DNA from: Ruminococcus sp.
GTDB lineage: Bacteria; Bacillota; Clostridia; Oscillospirales; Ruminococcaceae
Assembly (NCBI GenBank): GCA_017543335.1
Contig: JAFYGE010000079.1
Span: forward strand, 1 to 45,304
DNA length: 45,304 nt
Direction of reading: 5' to 3'
The notes beneath the pieces are model-generated. The model saw only the letters and a program-made list of their open reading frames with translations. It was not told the DNA's origin and did not search any database. The translations under genes were made by a program, and so were the position numbers. Below are positions 26,531 to 43,921 of this stretch, piece after piece. The stretch's first letter is position 1, and every line of letters starts with the position of its first letter.

Positions 26531-26820
26531 GTCTGTATTTTAGGAGAGCGTGTATTCTTACGGTTATTATTGAGGGAAACCCTTTTGAAAAAGGGTTCTC
26601 CCTCAAACTCCCTTCCTAAAACTTTCGGCTTCATTTTTCCCCAGATATAGTGCTCCAGTAGTAAGCAAACTACTGATTTTTATATTTTCAAGAGCACTAT
26701 ATCTGGGGAAAAATCAGGCTGAAAGTCTTTGGAAAGGGGTTCGGGGAAGAACCTTTCTTCAGAAAGGTTTGCCCCGATAAATGCACGTAAGAATACACGC
26801 TCCCCCAAACACAGACCTAT
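26527..26820. repeat. Three-hairpin palindromic element, copy A
   Basis: A 294-bp imperfect inverted repeat fills the whole gap between convergent azlD and the lipoprotein gene. The central stem is 22 bp and perfect (26634-26655 with 26692-26713) around a 36-nt loop that has its own small hairpin (CAGTAGT/ACTACTG). Each outer arm folds into a separate hairpin (GAGGGA...TCCCTC at 26572-26604, and a CGGGG...CCCCG one around 26742-26776). The arms close with TCTGT...GCGTGTATTCTTACG and its complement. Copy B lies inverted at 37171-37418. No coding potential. Confidence 0.88.
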
Positions 26821-32845: not shown

Positions 32846-33676
32846 ATGAAAGTTTTCAAAAAATGTTTATCCGCTGTTATGACATCATTAACAATCATGG
32901 CGTCTCTTCCTGTTGCTTCTTCTTATGCAGCACCCGCTCCCTCAACTGATCCTCAGTTCTATATTGATTTTACAGTAGAGGCTGACGGAAAGATAAGAGG
33001 AGATGTGATGCTTGCAAATGTGCCAAATCTTTCCGCTATTGGATTTCATATTAATTTAGGAGACGGATTTGAATTTGTCCCATTACCAGATGACCCGAGT
33101 TGTTATACAGAAATCAAAACTCAGTTTCATGGTGCGTATGCAGATGCATTAATTGATGACCAACGTCTTTTCTTTGCTGGTGCAAGTGTAACATCAGAAA
33201 ATGTTAATGGTCATTTTTTATCATTTTATGTAGAAAGAACAGCACAAAGCACAGATTATAACTCGACAGGAGAAATCGAATTTGTCAGTGGAGGATTAGA
33301 TGGTATATATGATAATGGTAGTTATATCTATAATCCTCCGCATATAATAATACCTATTGATACTCCGCCGATTCTTGAATCCGGTGAATTCATATACGGT
33401 GATGCAGATGATGATGGTTATGTTGATGCCTCAGATGCTGGACGTATAATGAGTGCGATTTCTGAAAATGGCGGTGCGATTTCAATCGCATCTTTCACAG
33501 AATCGACTTTGACATATCTCCCAACATATCGAACTGCATTTGCTGCTGATGTTAATACCGACGGTTATATTTCCAATGATGATGCTTCAGCGATTTTAAA
33601 CTATTATGTTACTATCGGAGCTGGAATCCCATACACTGGTAATATAAATACTGTCGATATATATGAAATATATTAA
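32846..33676 (+). CDS. Secreted protein with cohesin-like domain and dockerin
   Basis: The 276-residue protein has a signal peptide (about 1-29, ending SSYA). Residues of about 36-170 form a beta-rich domain whose VMLANVPNLSAIGFHINLG resembles the opening strands of cohesins. The C-terminal dockerin (about 184-258) has loops GDADDDGYVDASDA and ADVNTDGYISNDDA. A cohesin plus a dockerin is the plan of an adaptor scaffoldin (for example ScaC of Ruminococcus flavefaciens); the cohesin call is by pattern and less certain than the dockerin. AAGGAGG upstream; 14 bp before the next dockerin gene. Confidence 0.75.
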   Translation: MKVFKKCLSAVMTSLTIMASLPVASSYAAPAPSTDPQFYIDFTVEADGKIRGDVMLANVPNLSAIGFHINLGDGFEFVPLPDDPSCYTEIKTQFHGAYADALIDDQRLFFAGASVTSENVNGHFLSFYVERTAQSTDYNSTGEIEFVSGGLDGIYDNGSYIYNPPHIIIPIDTPPILESGEFIYGDADDDGYVDASDAGRIMSAISENGGAISIASFTESTLTYLPTYRTAFAADVNTDGYISNDDASAILNYYVTIGAGIPYTGNINTVDIYEIY

Positions 33677-34168: not shown

Positions 34169-35098
34169 TCAAGGGTCTCTTGGAAATTTATCTTCGTAGA
34201 CGCTTATTTCGGTTATTACACCTCTTTGACTTCCCCTGACGGAGACAGCAGCGATCCTTTGAGAAATGATATTCTGAAAAGTTACGATATCAGAAATATC
34301 TTCACCGTTATAGCCGCTGTATGAGCAGAAGAAGCGTTTTCTGGCTCTGAAAGCGTACTTATCACGGAAAAACAGAGCATCCTGAGGGTCACGGAGGAAT
34401 TCCATATCGAGGTCCAAATAGTGATGCCGGACAATTTTAGCATTTACAACATCGGTATCTTCGAGTTCGTATTCGCCGTATTCTCCGGACATATTAGCCA
34501 TATGGAAATGGCTTATGAGCCTTTTGCCGGATATTTCAGAACCAACGGAGAGCAGCTGAGAATTGTTATAGGAAAACACAGCCGGCTGAGGAACAGGAGT
34601 TATCCTCACGCAGTTATCATCTCTGATATAAGGGTATCTTCCGCACTGACGATAAGCGAGATTGACGATAGAGTCCCACATAGTGGAATTTTTATCAACA
34701 TAGATATAGCCGCTTGAATCGGAGTTGTTCTCGTGAGTGATATAAGGCAGGGGATAGAAGCTGTCCATGAGCTGATTGAAAGAGATATTGAATTTTAGTC
34801 CCGGTTCGATCTGATTCTGGTCGAGCATGGAAGTGAATCCACGGGAGCTGAAAGAAGCAATAGAAGTGCCGCCGGACAAAGTTTCCGTAAGAGTATCAAT
34901 AGTGCCGTGATGCAGAAGTTTGTTCCCGATATACAGCGAAACTTCGCAGGAGTTTTTAGGAATATCTGAGGTGCACCTGAGTTTTGCATTCAGTACGGTA
35001 TAGGGCAGGTAAGCGTCTTTCCGGAAACTGAACGAAAGGAGTTCATTCTGATAGGTATACAGACCTGATGCGGTCTTGAAAAGTAAGCGGATATTCAT
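34169..35098 (-). CDS. Phage tail/baseplate-like protein
   Basis: I do not recognise a specific family in these 309 residues. The sequence is beta-rich. SRGFTSMLDQNQIEPG and a later MWDSIVNLAYRQCG segment recall hub-type proteins (gpD/gp27-like) that bind short domains in order. It is last in the phage-type cluster and overlaps the preceding gene by ATGA. If it is a hub, it is unusual that no tape measure or tail tube gene precedes it. Confidence 0.55.
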   Translation of the reverse strand: MNIRLLFKTASGLYTYQNELLSFSFRKDAYLPYTVLNAKLRCTSDIPKNSCEVSLYIGNKLLHHGTIDTLTETLSGGTSIASFSSRGFTSMLDQNQIEPGLKFNISFNQLMDSFYPLPYITHENNSDSSGYIYVDKNSTMWDSIVNLAYRQCGRYPYIRDDNCVRITPVPQPAVFSYNNSQLLSVGSEISGKRLISHFHMANMSGEYGEYELEDTDVVNAKIVRHHYLDLDMEFLRDPQDALFFRDKYAFRARKRFFCSYSGYNGEDISDIVTFQNIISQRIAAVSVRGSQRGVITEISVYEDKFPRDP

Positions 35099-35493
35099 TC
35101 AGTCACCTCGTTTACAGCTGCCGGAGCCGGAGTTATAAGTGTGATAGAAGCATAGATGAAGTCGTCGCCCTTATCCTCGGCACGGAAGGACTGTATACGG
35201 CAATCCGTGAAAGAAAGTCCACGGTAGCCGGTGGAGAAAGAAACATTATTTCTCAGCATATAGCTTATGTCAGCGATTATCGCAAGCGGAGAAGCTCCGC
35301 CTGAAATTCTGCCGCTGAAAGATAGCTTCATAGCTTTGGGAGCTGAGTTCGTGATAATATCGTCACCCGAAACAGAAGGAGCTTCCGAGAAAATTCTGCT
35401 GCCCTCCGCCTTGAATTCCTCGCACCATAGAGTGATACTGCCGATAGAAACGGGAACTGCTTCTCTTTGACTGATAGAGACTGAGCTGCTCAT
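35095..35493 (-). CDS. Uncharacterised phage-cluster protein (tail-associated?)
   Basis: A 132-residue protein with no motif I can name. It is predicted mostly beta, with ITLWCEEFKAEGSRIF near the N terminus and SLTFTDCRIQ-like strands (GLSFTDCRIQSF) near residue 95. It overlaps both neighbours by ATGA and has AAAGGAG upstream. Size and position fit a small tail or connector protein. Confidence 0.5.
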   Translation of the reverse strand: MSSSVSISQREAVPVSIGSITLWCEEFKAEGSRIFSEAPSVSGDDIITNSAPKAMKLSFSGRISGGASPLAIIADISYMLRNNVSFSTGYRGLSFTDCRIQSFRAEDKGDDFIYASITLITPAPAAVNEVTE

Positions 35494-35900
35494 ACAGGAC
35501 TCCTTTCGTCTTTTATCATACCTGCTGTTGAGAAGTCGACAGTAAGCACGAGTCTGTGGATATTAGAGTCCGGCTTAATGGTTATGTCGTTGATAGAGCT
35601 GTTAAGCGATGACATACTTTTGACAGCCGGAGCAATAAGCTCGTCAAAATAGGTATAGAGCCTGTCCATAGTCCAGCTCTCCGGAGCAGTTATGCGGAGC
35701 GAAATATCCGCTTTAAACGGTATATAGACATAATTCTGGGAGTATATCGGTACAGAGCTGCTGAACGAGCGTATCTCTGCAACCGAGAAGATACCCTTGC
35801 TTTTACGCTGAATATCGACTGCATCGAAAGCACTGTACACTTCTTTTACACCGTGTTCAGTGAGGAGATTTATTATATCAGAAATTATAGTTTTCAGCAT
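35490..35900 (-). CDS. Probable tail terminator or head-closure protein
   Basis: A 136-residue protein from ATG 35900 (MLKTIISDIINLLTEHG). The alpha/beta pattern and ELIAPAVKSMSSLNSSINDITIKPDSN tail resemble phage tail-terminator proteins (gpU-like), based on size, position and style only. An open frame 23 codons longer overlaps the preceding gene and lacks a site. The start overlaps the stop of the preceding gene. Confidence 0.5.
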   Translation of the reverse strand: MLKTIISDIINLLTEHGVKEVYSAFDAVDIQRKSKGIFSVAEIRSFSSSVPIYSQNYVYIPFKADISLRITAPESWTMDRLYTYFDELIAPAVKSMSSLNSSINDITIKPDSNIHRLVLTVDFSTAGMIKDERSPV

Positions 35901-36268
35901 GGTATCATTTCCTTTCCTGAGGAAGTACCGAAGAATACGAAGGTCTTGGGACTTATGAGGTCGCTGCAAAGGGTAAGGTAGTCTCTCAGCATTCTTTCGG
36001 AGTACAAAAGTGCAGGGTTTGAGCTGTTGCTGTTCATTTTACCTGCGTAGGTATATTTGGAATTGTCACGGGAGGCTTCTGCCTGTCGCAGACGATAAGC
36101 TGCAATAGAAGCTGTGAGGAAGTCAAGACGAATATCTGAACTGTCAGCGTCCGGCAGGAGCATCTTTTCAGTTTCGGTCATAGCGAGCTGAATGAAAGGG
36201 ACGTAAGTACTTATATCGTCCTCACCTATAAATAGGGCGAAAATAGACTTAACTGATTCTAAGTTCAT
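35894..36268 (-). CDS. Probable head-tail connector protein
   Basis: A 124-residue mostly helical protein (SVKSIFALFIGEDD, then LDFLTASIAAYRLRQAEAS). The helical fold, size and position after the capsid/protease genes match gp6/gp15-type connectors. AGGAG upstream, 11 bp after the protease stop. Confidence 0.55.
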   Translation of the reverse strand: MNLESVKSIFALFIGEDDISTYVPFIQLAMTETEKMLLPDADSSDIRLDFLTASIAAYRLRQAEASRDNSKYTYAGKMNSNSSNPALLYSERMLRDYLTLCSDLISPKTFVFFGTSSGKEMIPC

Positions 36269-36279
36269 TAGTCACACTC

Positions 36280-37113
36280 CTATCTCATAGAAAAGTCGGA
36301 AGTATTATCGTTATCTCCGGATTGGTCCTCAAGCTGTATCTCTATACCGCCTGAGGAGCGTTTTGCTTCGAGGGCTTTTTTTAGTTTTAAAAGCTGACTT
36401 GTGTCCATATTTTTAGATGATACAGCAACGGTGTCCGCAGCGAGTTTGCCTCCGGAGAAATATGCAAGTCTGCGGATGTCACGGCGAAGCTCCTCATCAG
36501 CTTTTTCGAGTATGGCATAAGCAGGTGAAGCAGCTGCCTGTTCGGAGCTGTAATGCTTAGTTACACCGGCATTGACCTGAGCCGGAACAGCAACAAAGCT
36601 CCATTCATAGGCGTCTTTAATGTCATCGAGAACGGTGTGGCAAAGATTTTTACCGTAGAGCTTGTTTGACTTGTGACCGCAATTTTGTACTGATTTATCG
36701 CATCCGCAAATTGAGCATATCCTTTTTGCAGCAGAGCAGGAGATGCTTACTTCCTTTTTGATGCCGCCGTCGATTTCTGCGATGAGGTCATGGTTGTCAG
36801 TAGTCCTGACCATGTAAGCGTAAGCTTTGACGTACTTGTAAGGCGAGCCATATTTAGTAGTGCGAGCCTCGTCAGTTATGAGTTCGGTATCAAAAATACG
36901 AGCAGTCTGATTTGAAGCACTTGGGTCGTGGTCGGAGATGCCGGTCTTACCGATGAAAAGACTGCATATCTGTTCAAGAGCATTGTCCGAGAAACGTTCG
37001 CAGTCACGGTCTATATCATTATCACAGAGAATGACAGAAAATGTGTATATTTCGTCCTCTGTAAACTCACGTCTTGTGAATTTGTTTATCTTGGCAAGAG
37101 TTTCAGTATCCAT
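36280..37113 (-). CDS. Prohead serine protease
   Basis: The 277 residues carry the HK97-type protease pattern: His62 in GISDHDPS and Ser123 in GIKKEVSISCSA, followed by FVAVPAQVNAGV, which ends the catalytic domain. A Cys/His cluster (CSICGCDK... NCGHK... LCH) sits between the serine and that motif, as in some Clostridia phage proteases. The C-terminal tail is charged and probably scaffold-like. It cleaves the capsid precursor during assembly. Unusually it follows the capsid gene instead of preceding it. Confidence 0.8.
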   Translation of the reverse strand: MDTETLAKINKFTRREFTEDEIYTFSVILCDNDIDRDCERFSDNALEQICSLFIGKTGISDHDPSASNQTARIFDTELITDEARTTKYGSPYKYVKAYAYMVRTTDNHDLIAEIDGGIKKEVSISCSAAKRICSICGCDKSVQNCGHKSNKLYGKNLCHTVLDDIKDAYEWSFVAVPAQVNAGVTKHYSSEQAAASPAYAILEKADEELRRDIRRLAYFSGGKLAADTVAVSSKNMDTSQLLKLKKALEAKRSSGGIEIQLEDQSGDNDNTSDFSMR

Positions 37114-37170
37114 AATTACCGCCTTTCTGTAGCATTACCGCTCCCCGTTGCTCGTCGTGCTGGTATAGGG

Positions 37171-37418
37171 ATTATACGCCTTTTATCGGGGCAAACCTTT
37201 CTGAGGAAAGGTTCTTCCCCGAACCCCTTTCCAAAGACTTTCAGATTGATTTTTCCCCAGATAGGGTACTCCCCAATATTCAAAAATATGTCAATTAAAA
37301 ATACTCTGGGAGTACCCTATCTGGGGAAAAATAGAGCCGAAAGTTTTAGGAAGGGAGTTTGAGGGAGAACCCTTTTTCAAAAGGGTTTCCCTCAATAAGA
37401 AGCGTAAAAACTCTACAC
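37171..37418. repeat. Three-hairpin palindromic element, copy B
   Basis: A 248-bp element in the 338-bp gap between the capsid and protease genes, in inverted orientation relative to copy A. The central stem is 24 bp and perfect (37250-37273 with 37308-37331) around a 34-nt loop. The outer hairpins match those of copy A closely (CGGGG...CCCCG on the left, GAGGGA...TCCCTC on the right). The central stem differs from copy A at three pairs, each with a matching change on the other arm. No gene is seen in the rest of this gap. Confidence 0.88.
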
Positions 37419-37451
37419 AGTCACGATGAACAACGGGGGCGGTATATGATA

Positions 37452-38417
37452 TTAGTTACTGGAAGTTACTTTGAGTATTTTTACGGCATCGGGAGTAATT
37501 TTTCTGAATCCGCAGGTAATAGAGACAGTGATCTGGTCGAGCTGGCGGTCGATGAGCTTATCGGTCTCCATAACGAGGTCGGTGCTGGTGATAAATTCGA
37601 GAGCGAAGCAGCGGTCGATACCGATGATAGTGGTATTATCAGCAGCAGAGGTCTTAATGAGTTCAGAGCCGAACGGGAGAATGAAACGTCCGTCAGCATC
37701 AGCAGAGCAGTCCTTCATCTGATCCATAGCAGCTATCTTTGAAGCGAGTTCCGGAGAAGCGATAACTGTAGTCATATCGAAGCAGTCGAAGCTGCCATAG
37801 AGCTTAGCAAGATCGTCATAAGTGAGTGCAGATGTAGATATCTGAGCAGCATCTTCAACAAGAGCAGCAATAGCGTCCTTGACTACGGTCACAGCGAGTT
37901 TTACGCCGATGCTTCTGAGCATGATACCGAAGACATCGAGTCTCTGCTGGCGGATAGCTTCATATGAAGCACTGATAAGTCTGCCGTACTTAGCGAGCAC
38001 TGTAGCAGTTGCACTTTCAGTCACGGAAGCAGTCGGGAGCTGGTCAGCCTGATCTGAGGCTGTATATTCCTCAGAGTCATCGAGAGTACAGCCGAGGTAC
38101 TGTCCGGAGCAGCTCATAGTTTTGGCTGCACAAATGGAAGAGAGTACAGTTTCATCGAAACCTTTTCTGATACATCTTGTGACGAATTCAGGGAAGAGGA
38201 CAGCGGTTTCGGTAGAGGAGTAGAACTTTTCCACACGGTCGCAGTCCGGACCGGAAATTCTTATATTGAAGCGTTTGAGCTGACGTTCAAAAGCGTCGAG
38301 CTTTTCGAGTGGAGTACCGGAGTAAGCAGAAGAGGGGTCAAGCTCTTCGAGGGCGGAAGTGAAAGATTTTCCGCTGAGATTGTAAAGACCTTTTTCGAGT
38401 TTAATATCGTTATACAT
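37452..38417 (-). CDS. HK97-fold major capsid protein
   Basis: A 321-residue protein. The N-terminal 85 residues are helical and charged, like a scaffold/delta domain. The middle contains the long spine helix region (AVTVVKDAIAALVED). The C-terminal half has FIL PFGSELIKTSAADNTTIIGIDR and ends ITCGFRKITPDAVKILKV, the typical closing strands of HK97-type capsid proteins. GGAGG precedes the ATG. It stands before the protease gene, and both flanking gaps hold host-type repeats (copies B and D). Confidence 0.75.
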   Translation of the reverse strand: MYNDIKLEKGLYNLSGKSFTSALEELDPSSAYSGTPLEKLDAFERQLKRFNIRISGPDCDRVEKFYSSTETAVLFPEFVTRCIRKGFDETVLSSICAAKTMSCSGQYLGCTLDDSEEYTASDQADQLPTASVTESATATVLAKYGRLISASYEAIRQQRLDVFGIMLRSIGVKLAVTVVKDAIAALVEDAAQISTSALTYDDLAKLYGSFDCFDMTTVIASPELASKIAAMDQMKDCSADADGRFILPFGSELIKTSAADNTTIIGIDRCFALEFITSTDLVMETDKLIDRQLDQITVSITCGFRKITPDAVKILKVTSSN

Positions 38418-38453
38418 AAGTTTACCTCCAAAAATAATATTAAAAATTAATAA

Positions 38454-38562
38454 TACGGCGAAGCCGCAAAAAGGGATTCCAAAGGGTTTGCGAGGGAGAA
38501 CAGCGAGCGAAGCAAAGCTGTACGGACGTTAAGTATTATTACCATCGGCTTGACCGACGAAA
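38454..38562. repeat. Hairpin-rich dispersed repeat, copy D
   Basis: A 109-bp relative of copy C: both begin with a small C-G-rich GAA hairpin (CGGC-GAA-GCCG, 38456-38466), continue GGGATTCCAAAGGG, and end TCGGCTTGACCGACGA. The middle is shorter and different. It fills most of the gap between the portal and capsid genes. Confidence 0.75.
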
Positions 38563-38599
38563 TTACTTTCCTTATTCAGCCAAATATATAGTTGATTGT

Positions 38600-39733
38600 T
38601 TACAAGGCTGCATCAAGCCTGAGTTCAATTTCCCGTGCCTGAGCATTTTTAAGACGTGACTCCGCAAGAACGGATTCATCCTGTAGATTGATATTATCCC
38701 ATTCGACACGGCAGGAAGCCTCAGAGCCAATAGAGCAAAGGAAGGAGTTTCCTATATCGCAGATAACGGGAGTAAGCATACGGCGGTAGTATTCAAGCTC
38801 AGAGGTTAGAATATCCGCCTGCTGAGATGACATTCTCTCGGTGCTGCTCCAGCTTAGTCCGAGCAAAAATGGTGGTATAGAGAGTTTAGCTATGAGCTGT
38901 TCGAGTATCTGCCGAACAGGGATATTGGTGTCGAACATTTTGTTATCAGCACCGATGACCTTAATATCCACGTCTCCTACAGCAATGAAGTCCTTGACCT
39001 GACCGTATTTAGCGGAATTCATACCGTCCGCCCACTGCTCGGCTATCTGCTGAGCACGTTCACGGGAGTAAATAACATCACCGGGGTCGGACTGAGGTCT
39101 GTAGGTCACTGCATATCTTACATTGCCTGCACGGTCGAAGTTCTGACCGATACACTGGTATATTCTAAGGAGAATACTGCTGAGTGACGGAAGACCTCTT
39201 AAAACCGAGTGACCTCCGGTGAGAGCAGCGTAGAGGATGCGTTCGGGATGAGATATAGTTCTTAAAGAGCCGTCAGCTTGACGGAATGAATAGCGGCGGT
39301 CGAAAGGGTCAGAGCCGGGAGAGATCTTTATTCTGGAAATATCTCCGTTCCAAAGACCTGTAATAGTGGAATTTTCGTTATCAGGGACTATTTCTCCTAT
39401 CGCACTTCCATAAGTTATAAGACTATCGAGGAAATTATCGACGAAGCAGTTCACCGAGCGTCCGGTAAGTCCGACAGGGACGTTATCGAGAAAATTATCG
39501 AGAGCATCCTGTACATTCTCGTCTGAGCAGATAACTTTGAAACCTCCGGTCAGTCTGATTATCTTCATTATAGCAGCATCGATTATGGGAACAGCCGCTC
39601 TTAGTCTGTCATAGAGTTCTTTTTCAGCCTGTTCCATGACATTAGGCAGAGCCGTATCTCCACATGGACTTCGCATAGCGGCAGCTATCTCCGGAACATT
39701 TCTGCCGGAGCTTTTTCGTCTGAAAAGTTTCAT
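38600..39733 (-). CDS. Phage portal protein
   Basis: Forms the dodecameric DNA gate of the head. The 377-residue protein shows portal features: IPPFLLGLSWSSTERMSSQQADI (the wing/stem region), repeated helical segments, and an N-terminal region rich in charged helices. Slightly short for tailed phages but no frameshift. AAGGAGG upstream, 32 bp after the terminase gene. Confidence 0.85.
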   Translation of the reverse strand: MKLFRRKSSGRNVPEIAAAMRSPCGDTALPNVMEQAEKELYDRLRAAVPIIDAAIMKIIRLTGGFKVICSDENVQDALDNFLDNVPVGLTGRSVNCFVDNFLDSLITYGSAIGEIVPDNENSTITGLWNGDISRIKISPGSDPFDRRYSFRQADGSLRTISHPERILYAALTGGHSVLRGLPSLSSILLRIYQCIGQNFDRAGNVRYAVTYRPQSDPGDVIYSRERAQQIAEQWADGMNSAKYGQVKDFIAVGDVDIKVIGADNKMFDTNIPVRQILEQLIAKLSIPPFLLGLSWSSTERMSSQQADILTSELEYYRRMLTPVICDIGNSFLCSIGSEASCRVEWDNINLQDESVLAESRLKNAQAREIELRLDAAL

Positions 39734-39765
39734 AAAACCTCCTTTTAAGGAAACTGAACGGTGTA

Positions 39766-41013
39766 TTATCTTGCGACTGAAAAGGTAAAGAGTTCATCAC
39801 CGCACTGCTTACGGAGCATATCCGCTACGAAATAACGCATATCGTCCATAGCGTGGTCATTCTCTTTTATGGGAGCATCCACACCGGCTTTTTCGCTCCA
39901 CCTGTAAAGGTGAAATTCACGTATTATATCTCTGCACGAGCAATGAAATCTGAGTTTATTCTCACGCAGAGCATTACTCACCTGACGTATGCCGGTAATA
40001 ACGTCATTTTCGGCTTTAGCCACTCTGAATCTGCGGTGTCTGCGGATACACTCAATAAAACTTGCTGCGGACGGGTCGACGATGACCTTACTTATATTCA
40101 GATTTCCTGCAAGTTCTTCAAGAGCGGCATAATGCTCCTCATCGGTTCGGGAGACTCCCGTTTTTTTCGAGGAGTAATAGTACTCCCTTATGCGGTACCA
40201 AACGCCTTTATTAAGTCCCCAAAGACCGAATGACGAGGGATTGACAGTGCCGTAATCACAAGATATGACGTACTTTTCGCAAATTACATCTTCTGAGAAA
40301 ACGTGAATTTTCTCGTTGAACATGGGATAGACCACACCCTCCGAAGCGGTCCATTTGCCGAGAACGAACCGGTCGAAAAAGGCTCCGGAGTAAAGCCGTC
40401 TGTAGCGGTCTTTCATAGCTTCTGAGAGTGAAGGGTTATCATCCATAGTGAAGTGAAGATACAGTGCATTTTTTTCTTCAGCCTTTTTTATCCACTCATT
40501 ATAGAACCAATGCGAGGGATTATCTGGATTGCAGTTGAACCACATTTTTGAGCCGTTTACCGAGCATCTTGCGAGAGCCTGTTCAACGAAAGACCGAGGC
40601 ATAAGAGCAGCCTCATCAAAGAAAACTCCCGAAAGAGTCATACCTTGTATCAGAGCAGCGGAGCTTTCGTCCTTACCGCCGAACAGGTAAAAGCGGTTTG
40701 TATTACCGAACATAGAGATGTCGATATAATTGCCGCTTACTTTTTCAGAGCAGACCGCACCGAGGTCGGAGAGCAGCGGAAAGATCGGTGTGACCACATT
40801 TCTTCGCAGAGAAGTGATAGTCTTGCCGCAAAGAGCAAAAGCGTTGCCGTTGAAACTGGCTGAGGCCCAGAAGATAAATCCCACTGACATAGAAAGTGTT
40901 TTACCGCTTCTCACAGCACCGTCGCATATGATAGCGTCACGTTTCTTATAGCGAGGATTCTTCCACCAGTTCATTGTAAGCCTTTGTTTTGGAGAGAGAT
41001 CACTGATCTTCAA
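39766..41013 (-). CDS. terL: Terminase large subunit
   Basis: DNA packaging motor with ATPase and nuclease domains. From the proposed TTG start at 41013 (MKISDLSPKQRLTMNWW, 415 residues) it has Walker A GAVRSGKT (32-39) and Walker B VFFDEAA (130-136). Nuclease acids appear in SCDYGT (Asp253), IVDPSA (Asp313) and NDHAMDDMRY (386-391). All catalytic residues are kept, so the motor could be active. The start is inferred from the GAGGAAGG site; the frame is open a further 29 codons through terS, which is unlikely to be translated. Overlaps terS by 14 bp. Confidence 0.92.
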   Translation of the reverse strand: MKISDLSPKQRLTMNWWKNPRYKKRDAIICDGAVRSGKTLSMSVGFIFWASASFNGNAFALCGKTITSLRRNVVTPIFPLLSDLGAVCSEKVSGNYIDISMFGNTNRFYLFGGKDESSAALIQGMTLSGVFFDEAALMPRSFVEQALARCSVNGSKMWFNCNPDNPSHWFYNEWIKKAEEKNALYLHFTMDDNPSLSEAMKDRYRRLYSGAFFDRFVLGKWTASEGVVYPMFNEKIHVFSEDVICEKYVISCDYGTVNPSSFGLWGLNKGVWYRIREYYYSSKKTGVSRTDEEHYAALEELAGNLNISKVIVDPSAASFIECIRRHRRFRVAKAENDVITGIRQVSNALRENKLRFHCSCRDIIREFHLYRWSEKAGVDAPIKENDHAMDDMRYFVADMLRKQCGDELFTFSVAR

Positions 41014-41494
41014 CAATATCACCTTCCTCTGCGGAAGAGGTAAGAGCCGACATAAGTTCATCAGCTTTACTGCGGTCGCTGAAAGCAGTTTCGAGCTCAT
41101 AAAGTTTTTCGAGAGCTTTCAGCCTGTCGAATAGTTTTACCTCAACTCCGCCGTTTTTGTCACGTTTTATTTCTGATACGTTGAAAAGGTCGAGCTCAGA
41201 GATAACATCAGGCGGCGGGAGTTCCTCAGCGAATACCAGTCTTACAGCGTCGGTACAGCTTCCGAAAGCGAGTCTTTTAAGACCAGCCATAACATTACCG
41301 CTGTCCGACAAAGCATCTCTGTATCTGGAGATCTTGCGTCTGCAATTGACGCTGTCCAGAGCTTTAAGTCCCTCAGAGAGAGCGGACTTGCTGTTGAAAC
41401 CAGCTTTCAGAGCCGCTTCAGCGGCATTGCCGAGAACAGCATAATAGCAGCAGAAAGCGTTCCGTTTGCTTGTTTTTTCATTATCGTCCTGCAA
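41000..41494 (-). CDS. terS: Terminase small subunit
   Basis: Recognises DNA for packaging. From the TTG at 41494 the protein is 164 residues. The N-terminal helix-turn-helix region has FCCYYAVLGNAAEAALKAGFNSKSALSEG, followed by helical oligomerisation sequence (FDRLKALEKLYEL). AAAGGAGG lies 8 nt upstream of this TTG and settles the start; an ATG 24 codons earlier has no site. First gene of the phage-type cluster. I see no good SigA promoter between it and the terminators at 41586-41690. Confidence 0.8.
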   Translation of the reverse strand: MQDDNEKTSKRNAFCCYYAVLGNAAEAALKAGFNSKSALSEGLKALDSVNCRRKISRYRDALSDSGNVMAGLKRLAFGSCTDAVRLVFAEELPPPDVISELDLFNVSEIKRDKNGGVEVKLFDRLKALEKLYELETAFSDRSKADELMSALTSSAEEGDIVEDQ

Positions 41495-41585
41495 TTGATT
41501 TACCTCCTTTCGGTATTGAGCGGAAATGCACCGTTCATAAGGGGGCAGAAAAACGGCATAATTCAATGGAAAACAGTTGTATAAT

Positions 41586-41695: not shown

Positions 41696-42727
41696 TTATT
41701 TGACCAGCTCAACAGCCATGTCATAAAGTTCATCAAGGCTGTATTCCTTATCATCGGAGCTGTCGGTACTGATATGGTCATCTTCCTTTACAGGGATGCT
41801 GTTTGCCGGAAAGGTTCCGACCTTGCCTTCTTTGTTCTTTGGATTTAATGCTGAAAATACAGTACAGCCGTCTTCAATAACAACAAAATAATCGAAGTCA
41901 TCCTTTTTATAGAAATAATTCTCAGCGTACTCATCAAGCTTATCAATATCCAAGTCGTCTGGTACATTTACATTCTTGCTGCTGTCTGAGCATATTATAT
42001 ACGTACCGCTGACATCAGCAGCGTCACGGTTTTCTATATCGCACAGAGCTGACGCATAACCTTTTCCTAAAGTACTTGCCGAACTGTTACTGCTGGCTTT
42101 TTTGGACTTATTGATGTATTTCCACATACTTTCGTCCACTTTCCAGCCTTCACCGTCAACATAATAAATGAGCATTTCGCTGTTTTTTTCATCATCGTTG
42201 ACCTTATATTTTACGTTGACTAAATAAGCATCATCAATATTGTAAGGGGACTTGAAGTTTTCTTCCATTTCCGAGTATTTATCCTGCATTTCTTTGAGCT
42301 TTTCCTCATCCATCCCCTGAATATCGTCCATGCTCTTCAAACCGTACTCAGCCATGAGGTCAAGAGGATATTTCATCTTGCCAAGGTAATCAGAAAATTC
42401 GGTTATAGATTCATCAGGAAAATCATTTTCCTTTTTGATCTCTAAAACTTCAATATCCTTGTTCATAAGTTCCTGAAATTCCTCATTTGTGTCGAAATCG
42501 CCGAATTTTTCAAGCATTTTAGCGAGATCATCAGGATACATAAGTTTTAATGCCTTTTCTATATCGCCGTTGTCAACAGTGTCGAAATAATTCTCGATAA
42601 TATCCTTATAATCTGAGGATTTTCCTTTATCGCTGCTGCTGTCGTCGTCGTCTTTAGTAAGTCCGCAGCCGCCAAGAGCTAATCCTGCTGTCAGAGCAGC
42701 TAATGTCAATGAAGTGATTTTTTTCAT
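41696..42727 (-). CDS. Lipoprotein, paralogue 2 of a tandem pair
   Basis: A 343-residue protein with lipobox LGGC (Cys21) and a short acidic Ser-rich linker. A helical middle region (YFDTVDNGDIEKALKLMYPDDL) follows. The C-terminal domain (about 165-320) shares with the upstream paralogue YYVDGEGWK, YINKSKKAS, ASALCDIENRDAADVSG-TYI and FVVIEDGC. The NKSKK...ALTDL helix followed by beta strands resembles the soluble part of pilin-like proteins, but there is no prepilin N terminus. Lies 30 bp after the paralogue, same transcript. Function unknown. Confidence 0.8.
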   Translation of the reverse strand: MKKITSLTLAALTAGLALGGCGLTKDDDDSSSDKGKSSDYKDIIENYFDTVDNGDIEKALKLMYPDDLAKMLEKFGDFDTNEEFQELMNKDIEVLEIKKENDFPDESITEFSDYLGKMKYPLDLMAEYGLKSMDDIQGMDEEKLKEMQDKYSEMEENFKSPYNIDDAYLVNVKYKVNDDEKNSEMLIYYVDGEGWKVDESMWKYINKSKKASSNSSASTLGKGYASALCDIENRDAADVSGTYIICSDSSKNVNVPDDLDIDKLDEYAENYFYKKDDFDYFVVIEDGCTVFSALNPKNKEGKVGTFPANSIPVKEDDHISTDSSDDKEYSLDELYDMAVELVK

Positions 42728-42757
42728 ATTTTTCTCCTTATATTTTACTAATGTTTT

Positions 42758-43921
42758 TTATTTTAATAAATCCTTAGCAAGCTCGTAGAGTTCTTCATAG
42801 GAGTGGTTGAAATTTTCGTCTTTTTCCTTTGAATAGTCGTTAATATCAGCCGGTAAAGTATCAGCCGGATAAGTGCCTATAAATGCATTATCGTCCTTAT
42901 TCATTGTTACAGCATAAATCGGACAGCCATTGTCAATAACGATAAAATAATCAATTTTTACAATATCGTCAAAATAGTTCTTTGTCTGTGACTTTATCTT
43001 GTCAACAGGCTTATTTTCTGCATTTACGTTCATGTTGTCATCGGAGCTTATGATATATTTTCCGCTCAGGTCAACACCTTCAGCGTCCAAATCGGTTAAT
43101 GCGGATGCATAAGCTTTTTCAAGTGAAGAAGCAGCTGCATTAAGAGAGATTTTTTTTGATTTGTTTACATATCCGATCATAGATTCTTCAAATTTCCAGC
43201 CGTCACCGTCGATATAATATACAAGGAAGTACATTTCATCGGGGTTGCCTTCTTCGCCCTCATACTCTATTGCAACATCAACTAAGTATGCCTGTGTTAT
43301 CTTATATCTGGAGTCTCTTACCTCCATTGCAGCTTCCTGCTCTTCTTCGGGGATAGCTTCAACGTCTCCTTTGTATTTTTTAATGAGTTCAGCAGCTGCT
43401 GCGTACTGAGCTAATTCCTCGCCGGCATCTGCGATCTCGTCATCAGGTACTTTTTCTTCACTGATTATACCCTTGTAGATTATCTTTTTACCATTGCTGC
43501 CTAATTCTTCTTTTAATTCGTCCGCCATGTCCGAACGATATTCTAAGATGGTATCGACTACATCAGTAGGGTAATAAGAGTACAAAAGGTCTTTAAAATC
43601 CGAATTGTTTATTTTTTCGATGGCATCTTTGAGAAAATCCAAATAGTCTCCGGACGGCTCAATATAGTTACTGTCTGCCCCGTTATTATTTTCTTTAGTT
43701 TCAGTTTCGGTATTTTCCTCGGTTACGTCTTGTTCGGTTACGTTTTCTTCGGTTGAGTTTGTATTATCCTCGTCTTTTGAATCAGAGTCGCCAGCTTTTT
43801 CGGCGGACTGAGCAGAAGAACTACTGCTCTTTTCGGAAGAACTGCTTTCGTCCTTTCCGCATCCTGTAAGCATCGTGAATACAGTTGTAAAGGCTAAAAT
43901 GCCTGCGATAATTTTTTTCAT
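42758..43921 (-). CDS. Lipoprotein, paralogue 1 of a tandem pair
   Basis: The 387-residue protein has lipobox LTGC (Cys21), then a long Ser/Glu/Asp/Asn-rich linker (about 25-90). The helical middle (SDFKDLLYSYYPTDVVDTI) and C-terminal domain match the downstream gene at YYIDGDGWK, YVNKSKKIS, ASALTDLDAEGVDLSG-KYI and FIVIDNGC. AGGAGG upstream and its own promoter. The two genes clearly arose by duplication and have diverged, so both are probably kept by selection. Confidence 0.82.
   Translation of the reverse strand: MKKIIAGILAFTTVFTMLTGCGKDESSSSEKSSSSSAQSAEKAGDSDSKDEDNTNSTEENVTEQDVTEENTETETKENNNGADSNYIEPSGDYLDFLKDAIEKINNSDFKDLLYSYYPTDVVDTILEYRSDMADELKEELGSNGKKIIYKGIISEEKVPDDEIADAGEELAQYAAAAELIKKYKGDVEAIPEEEQEAAMEVRDSRYKITQAYLVDVAIEYEGEEGNPDEMYFLVYYIDGDGWKFEESMIGYVNKSKKISLNAAASSLEKAYASALTDLDAEGVDLSGKYIISSDDNMNVNAENKPVDKIKSQTKNYFDDIVKIDYFIVIDNGCPIYAVTMNKDDNAFIGTYPADTLPADINDYSKEKDENFNHSYEELYELAKDLLK

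Follow-up and report, generated by a model that had tools for sequence, protein, structure and literature searches.

Do the phage-type head genes on a contig of Ruminococcus sp. (assembly GCA_017543335.1, contig JAFYGE010000079.1) belong to a decaying prophage or to a particle that the host maintains? In the window, the whole 45,304-nucleotide stretch of DNA analysed, nine adjacent minus-strand genes fill positions 34169-41494 (~7.3 kb) in the order TerS and TerL (the small and large terminase subunits), portal, capsid, XkdF-like protease, g6, g7, g8 and hub. Their presence, the selection acting on them and their context fit a set of structural genes of phage origin that selection has retained in the chromosome. 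Domestication of the cluster is strongly supported. Judged from the genes, DNA packaging is its best-supported function and gene transfer is plausible. We consider it likely that the cluster encodes a domesticated, host-maintained packaging particle with a stub tail, similar to a gene transfer agent (GTA), and Ruminococcus probably builds small particles that package its own DNA.

The first-pass annotation of this DNA had described a compact minus-strand head module of eight intact genes without frameshifts. The module and the integrity of its genes were borne out by open reading frames and family matches, and all frames in the window are open. The count, however, is nine, the last gene encoding a 309-aa baseplate-hub homologue. 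The features are as follows.

41499..41554, minus strand: terS leader with a conserved CCCCTTATGAACGGTG...GAAAGGAGG element and a predicted hairpin able to pair with the Shine-Dalgarno sequence (shared 8-mers, folding)
41000..41494, minus strand: terS, terminase small subunit (PF03592, 4e-14; TTG start predicted from the Shine-Dalgarno position; the reading frame extends to 41566)
39766..41022, minus strand: terL, terminase large subunit (PF03237, 8e-19; ATPase and nuclease residues intact)
38600..39733, minus strand: portal protein (phrog_30703, 5e-130)
37452..38417, minus strand: major capsid protein, Phage_capsid_4 (PF25209, 2e-10; phrog_3922)
37225..37350, no strand assigned: palindromic host repeat between the capsid and protease genes (nine other places in its own genome)
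36280..37113, minus strand: XkdF-like prohead protease with an inserted C-x2-C...C-x-H (zinc-ribbon-like) motif (phrog_16951, 3e-91)
35894..36268, minus strand: g6, head-tail adaptor (hhalign 98.6-99.5% to adaptor families of related clusters)
35490..35900, minus strand: g7, conserved protein of 136 aa at the head-tail connector position (assigned by position; without a family match)
35095..35493, minus strand: g8, predicted tail-tube/tube-initiator-type fold (structural model)
34169..35098, minus strand: hub9, baseplate hub of the Mu gp44/T4 gp27 type, 309 aa (homology and structural model)

The terL start probably lies near 41022 rather than at 41100, where the reading frame begins, because many homologues have stops within the first 31 codons. 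Overlaps of 4-7 nt at hub/g8, g8/g7 and g7/g6 agree with the coupling noted earlier. The protease shares 41% identity across 186 residues with an annotated Tepidibacter XkdF-like protein. No convincing match in Pfam or PHROG was obtained for the four tail-side proteins (g6, g7, g8 and hub); one member of the adaptor families matched by g6 has a weak match to a head-tail adaptor PHROG (E 0.038). The tail tube had been reported as missing, which is not quite right given the predicted tail-tube-type fold of g8. No integration or replication genes were identified among the nine genes with Pfam and PHROG, g7 being without a match. The host-type repeat between genes was recovered as a 126-bp element that recurs in its own genome, one of its nine further matches being partial. 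This palindromic repeat resembles a miniature inverted-repeat transposable element, is present in about ten copies in this genome, one of them inside the head module, and has another copy in the window at 26610-26738.

To judge the integrity of the cluster, 94 distinct loci were compared, 83 of which are of the genus type as defined by portal identity of ~62% or more and not by taxonomy. The catalytic residues that the first-pass annotation had found intact in TerL and in the protease were counted over 92 and 90 aligned loci, respectively. The Walker A residues of TerL are present in 92/92 loci, except T68 (90/92), and the Walker B residues D162/E163 in 92/92; the nuclease residues are equally near-invariant (D282 in 92/92, D342 and D419/D420 in 91/91). 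In the protease, H62 is conserved in 89/89 loci and S123 in 88/89. Since the ATPase and nuclease residues of TerL are essentially invariant, DNA packaging seems to be under selection. All nine genes are present in 75 of the 83 genus-type loci, and in six of the eight incomplete loci a contig end lies no more than 0.7 kb away. In one locus (L064, genome G031) the capsid gene is reduced to its last 19 codons with the neighbours kept, through natural loss or assembly error. Synteny and purifying selection, both proposed earlier as checks, were found: the genes present have the same order and strand in 83/83 loci, and per-gene median dN/dS values range from 0.085 (capsid) to 0.19 (g7), well below 1, with individual pairs of up to 0.74 for g8. 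For TerS, which in a gene transfer agent would be expected to lack a DNA-binding domain and to package non-specifically, median identity to the window is 49% over residues 36-92 and 77% over residues 93-165. Homologues with many stop codons, which would have spoken for decay, were not found. Interruptions are rare, and most apparent stops fall within the extended N-terminus of terL or terS, or else in the final codons.

The cluster is nearly universal in the genus. An initial comparison placed it in 32/36 genus genomes, and a profile search found the portal in 116/125, including 66/68 near-complete ones. A single match was obtained in 114 of the positive genomes and two pieces in the other two, with stops in 2/118 portal match rows. 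Among the nine negative genomes, one has a TerL of 71% identity near a contig start, one a stop-bearing TerL fragment, two a distant TerL (50% and 34%) and five no TerL. Named carriers in the 80 loci kept include at least five strains of R. flavefaciens (Y1, ATCC 19208, YAD2003, FD-1 and YL228), and FD-1 (L098) and ATCC 19208 (L093) have the full set of nine genes; none of the 80 loci is named R. callidus, R. albus or R. champanellensis.

The surroundings of the cluster are those of host genes. No integrase was found near it among the matches listed for 22 genus genomes, 21 of them cluster-bearing, and among these matches integrases lie on the contig of the cluster in one genome only, >600 kb away. 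Variable positions together with an integrase and attachment sites, which would have pointed to a mobile element, were not found; this refers to integrases among the matches listed, attachment sites not having been searched. Flanking genes of the window and 31 other loci were compared, and those sampled are of host type (azlC, feoA, purD/purH). azlC lies at most four genes upstream in eight loci (the azlCD genes of the window are farther away), feoA directly downstream in eleven, and purD within the fetched flank of six, three of which have a gene of the Spo0A-C-type group before terS. These three are L074, L075 and L080; the L075 member carries the Spo0A C-terminal DNA-binding domain, and one doubtful frame separates it from terS. 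Such a protein is a possible regulator of the cluster. In the window, two lipoprotein-like genes of the same group lie directly upstream of the cluster (41696-43921), and on its downstream side there is a weak match to dockerin (32846-33676).

The head genes track the host in part. Over 27 genomes, head-gene distances correlate with those of rpoB (Mantel 0.54, 0/999 permutations as high), and the head and rpoB trees have 8/24 splits in common vs 0.2 at random. The lineage extends beyond the genus. TerL relatives were found in 70/295 genomes of the order (E up to 1e-20), many at 50-64% identity and others down to 26%. By profile, the capsid lineage is present in 101/395 genomes and 52/172 genera of the order, with a single match in 98/101. 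In one other family it is present in 128/200 genomes and 69/107 genera (127/128 with a single match; 72/200 genomes are without it), and the positive genomes of this family include some of 0.9-1.1 Mb, such as G652 and G658. No capsid stops were seen among the matches listed, either across the order or in this family. From the 69 positive genera of the other family 30 genomes were drawn, one per genus. The order TerS-TerL-portal-protease-capsid holds in 30/30, and in 6/30 an hflX-like gene is found past the tail end. The trees of this family are in poorer agreement with rpoB (Mantel 0.585, 0/999; 6/27 splits in common vs 0.2 at random).

Relatives among phages are few. In a collection of 50,697 phage records, portal and capsid match five unverified faecal 'Bacteriophage sp.' records, and the sole other match is a 25% portal match in a Microcystis phage. 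One of the faecal records, MT835508, resembles a piece of bacterial chromosome: judged from its reading frames alone, the cluster there is flanked by host-like genes, some of them for ribosomal proteins. Pieces of the cluster are listed in virus collections as phage or viral contigs (MT835508, which is our locus L170; MT835769, L171; L031; and others). The protease has a 40% match in Flavonifractor phage Cormatin, and the matches of TerL to annotated phages reach 49-50%.

A tailed relative was found in Tepidibacter hydrothermalis, where a 38.8-kb plasmid (NZ_CP120734.1, L292) that looks like a phage-plasmid has the same head and tail gene order. In portal, protease, capsid and TerS the plasmid matches the Ruminococcus module, and it is annotated with a tape measure, a 'DNA circularization' protein, baseplate J and an XhlA-family protein. 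With this relative in the same order, the bacterial clusters appear to represent stages in the loss of the tail. Set against Tepidibacter, some cluster types have sheath- and tube-like genes without a detected tape measure, some a hub and baseplate, some a hub without baseplate J, and some no detected hub; a hub without baseplate J is the type of Ruminococcus, of two other genera of its family and of several further loci. Among the 30 other-family genomes, baseplate J is present in 21, the tube in 11 and the sheath in 3, where 'sheath' and 'tube' are labels that we presume from gene order and known motifs; a tape measure was detected in 0/30 by an insensitive single-query search. In Ruminococcus, a single-query search found baseplate J in 1/22 genomes, and the Tepidibacter sheath-position protein, likewise one insensitive query, had no match in 31 genus loci. 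Within the Ruminococcus cluster itself, single-query searches detected no tape measure, sheath or baseplate J, g7 being without a match.

The first-pass annotation had seen no regulation in the module, which is incomplete in that a conserved leader element precedes terS. Eight-mers such as AAAGGAGG and ATGAACGG are common to 40-55 of 76 genus upstream regions vs at most 10 in the five shuffles listed, with kinship uncontrolled; AAAGGAGG is an ordinary Shine-Dalgarno sequence. TATGAAC occurs in 48/81 terS upstream regions. An inner stem of at least 5 pairs is predicted in 49/70 leader segments, the leader folds with a mean energy of -16.7 vs -11.0 after shuffling of the upstream sequence, and pairing of the Shine-Dalgarno site is 78% vs 67%. 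Compensatory arms are present (TGAACGG/CCGTTCA, TGAGAGGC/GCCTCTCG), and statistical covariation of the pairs is modest to absent. The leader gave no match to Rfam at gathering score. From the folding models, the hairpin is a possible translational gate.

These observations suggest how such a particle could arise and act. The ancestor would have been a phage with a PBSX/Mu-type tail, whose cluster was since domesticated and kept by the host. The cluster would make a small capsid, which the terminase would fill with pieces of the host chromosome, and the particle would end not in a full tail but in a stub of adaptor, tube-fold ring and gp27-like hub. The leader hairpin may gate translation of terS. 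As in a gene transfer agent, the genes would be expressed, host DNA would be packaged, and the particles would be set free by lysis and carry the DNA to other cells.

Known systems resemble the cluster in part. PBSX, a GTA-like defective prophage of Bacillus subtilis, retains lysis genes as well as genes for sheath, tube and tape measure. RcGTA of Rhodobacter, a lineage different from that of the cluster, has retained a tail that includes a tape measure of its own and spikes. The cluster is like PBSX in its XkdF-like protease and Mu/PBSX-type hub, and the tail genes of the wider family are arranged on the PBSX/Mu plan, with the XkdF-like protein, tape measure and baseplate J of Tepidibacter so ordered. 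It differs from PBSX in that lysis genes, in addition to the tail genes named above, were not found in it by single-query searches, and in that PBSX packages 13 kb (PMC7667829). According to PMC12946183, very few GTAs are known outside Alphaproteobacteria, and GTA-like 4.6-kb packaging is described in Ruminococcus callidus, with genes named for Faecalibacterium only; the FpGTA proteins named there include RCH50849.1 and RCH50851.1. The candidate-cluster search given there took in four metagenome-assembled genomes, zero of them Ruminococcus, and the search for FpGTA homologues across all its scaffolds is reported for Faecalibacterium (PMC12946183). By that description FpGTA is similar to the cluster in being a short head operon without replication genes, genus-wide in gut Ruminococcaceae and with its tail unseen, the Faecalibacterium particles being 40 nm without identifiable tails; it differs in having a further operon for baseplate, fibre and lysis, and no such operon was found for the Ruminococcus cluster. 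In the accessible parts of the open-access literature on gene transfer agents of Ruminococcus, Oscillospiraceae and Clostridia, no description of the cluster was found.

Several points weigh against a domesticated GTA-like particle. The position of the cluster is common to groups of loci and not fixed genus-wide. The head-gene tree contradicts 4/13 supported rpoB splits and the tail-gene tree 1/13, head and tail trees conflict in 6/19 supported head splits, and in the other family 7/15 supported rpoB splits are contradicted. g6 alone has no significant rpoB correlation (144/999 permutations as high) and hub9 barely follows rpoB (42/999). About five loci are truly damaged: terL carries stops in L062 and L140, L064 has lost the capsid gene, L144 has a frameshift and L117 a truncated hub. 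The portal occurs on 26 IMG/VR viral contigs of 2.6-15.5 kb, which leaves room for mobile forms. The Tepidibacter TerL was unmatched to that of Ruminococcus by BLAST. No lysis gene was identified, holin PF05105 being found in 13/22 genomes and thus not universal, and no receptor-binding protein was identified. By our analysis the cluster would be the obvious candidate source of the R. callidus packaging, where the 4.6 kb packaged (PMC12946183) is less than the 7.3-kb cluster, but R. callidus is not among the loci identified by name.

Other explanations have to be set beside this one. A recently spread or decaying prophage remnant would account for the missing lysogeny and lysis genes and for some broken copies, but it is contradicted by presence in 116/125 species-level genomes, by dN/dS of 0.085-0.19 and by the conserved catalytic residues, and is very improbable. 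The combination of head genes and terminase without a full tail also recalls a head-only satellite, which would form capsids from its own genes and use the tails of helper phages. Capsid-forming phage-inducible chromosomal islands (PICIs) have their own capsid and terminase and no tail; satellites of this type are mobile islands of patchy presence that carry integrase and other integration genes and regulators. The cluster, in contrast, is near-universal in the genus, lies in host-type context with no integrase near among the matches listed, and has its own hub and tube-fold protein, so that a satellite, of the class named in PMC11389934, is improbable here.

A capsid put to a use other than transfer, as a killing particle or as a storage or defence compartment, is less remote but still unlikely. 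PBSX packages host DNA yet acts as a bacteriocin (PMC7667829), and gp27-like hubs are found in contractile weapons too. The invariance of the TerL ATPase and nuclease residues argues against such a use, as do baseplate J in just one of 22 genus genomes and the sheath-position query, insensitive as it is, that went unmatched in 31 loci. The domesticated particle put forward by the first-pass annotation is supported by presence, order, dN/dS, host-type flanks and rare interruptions. Of the two forms offered for it, GTA-like fits better and bacteriocin-like less well, because the module retains packaging motor, portal, protease and capsid and has a reduced tail, whereas a tailocin is built the other way round.

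A broader proposal can be made more tentatively, at somewhat less than even chances. An ancient, order-wide GTA-like lineage, derived from one PBSX/Mu-tailed ancestor by stepwise tail loss (sheath/tube without tape measure; baseplate only; stub and hub; head only), may account for much of the host DNA that capsids carry in samples from the gut, the 4.6-kb R. callidus particles among them, with an RNA hairpin gating terS in Ruminococcus. The cluster supplies candidate genes for an observed packaging event that has had no genes assigned, and the graded series of clusters offers a way to study the change from phage to tailless GTA. If true, capsid-mediated gene exchange would be a regular trait of most of a gut and rumen genus and of many of its relatives, down to genomes of 0.9 Mb.

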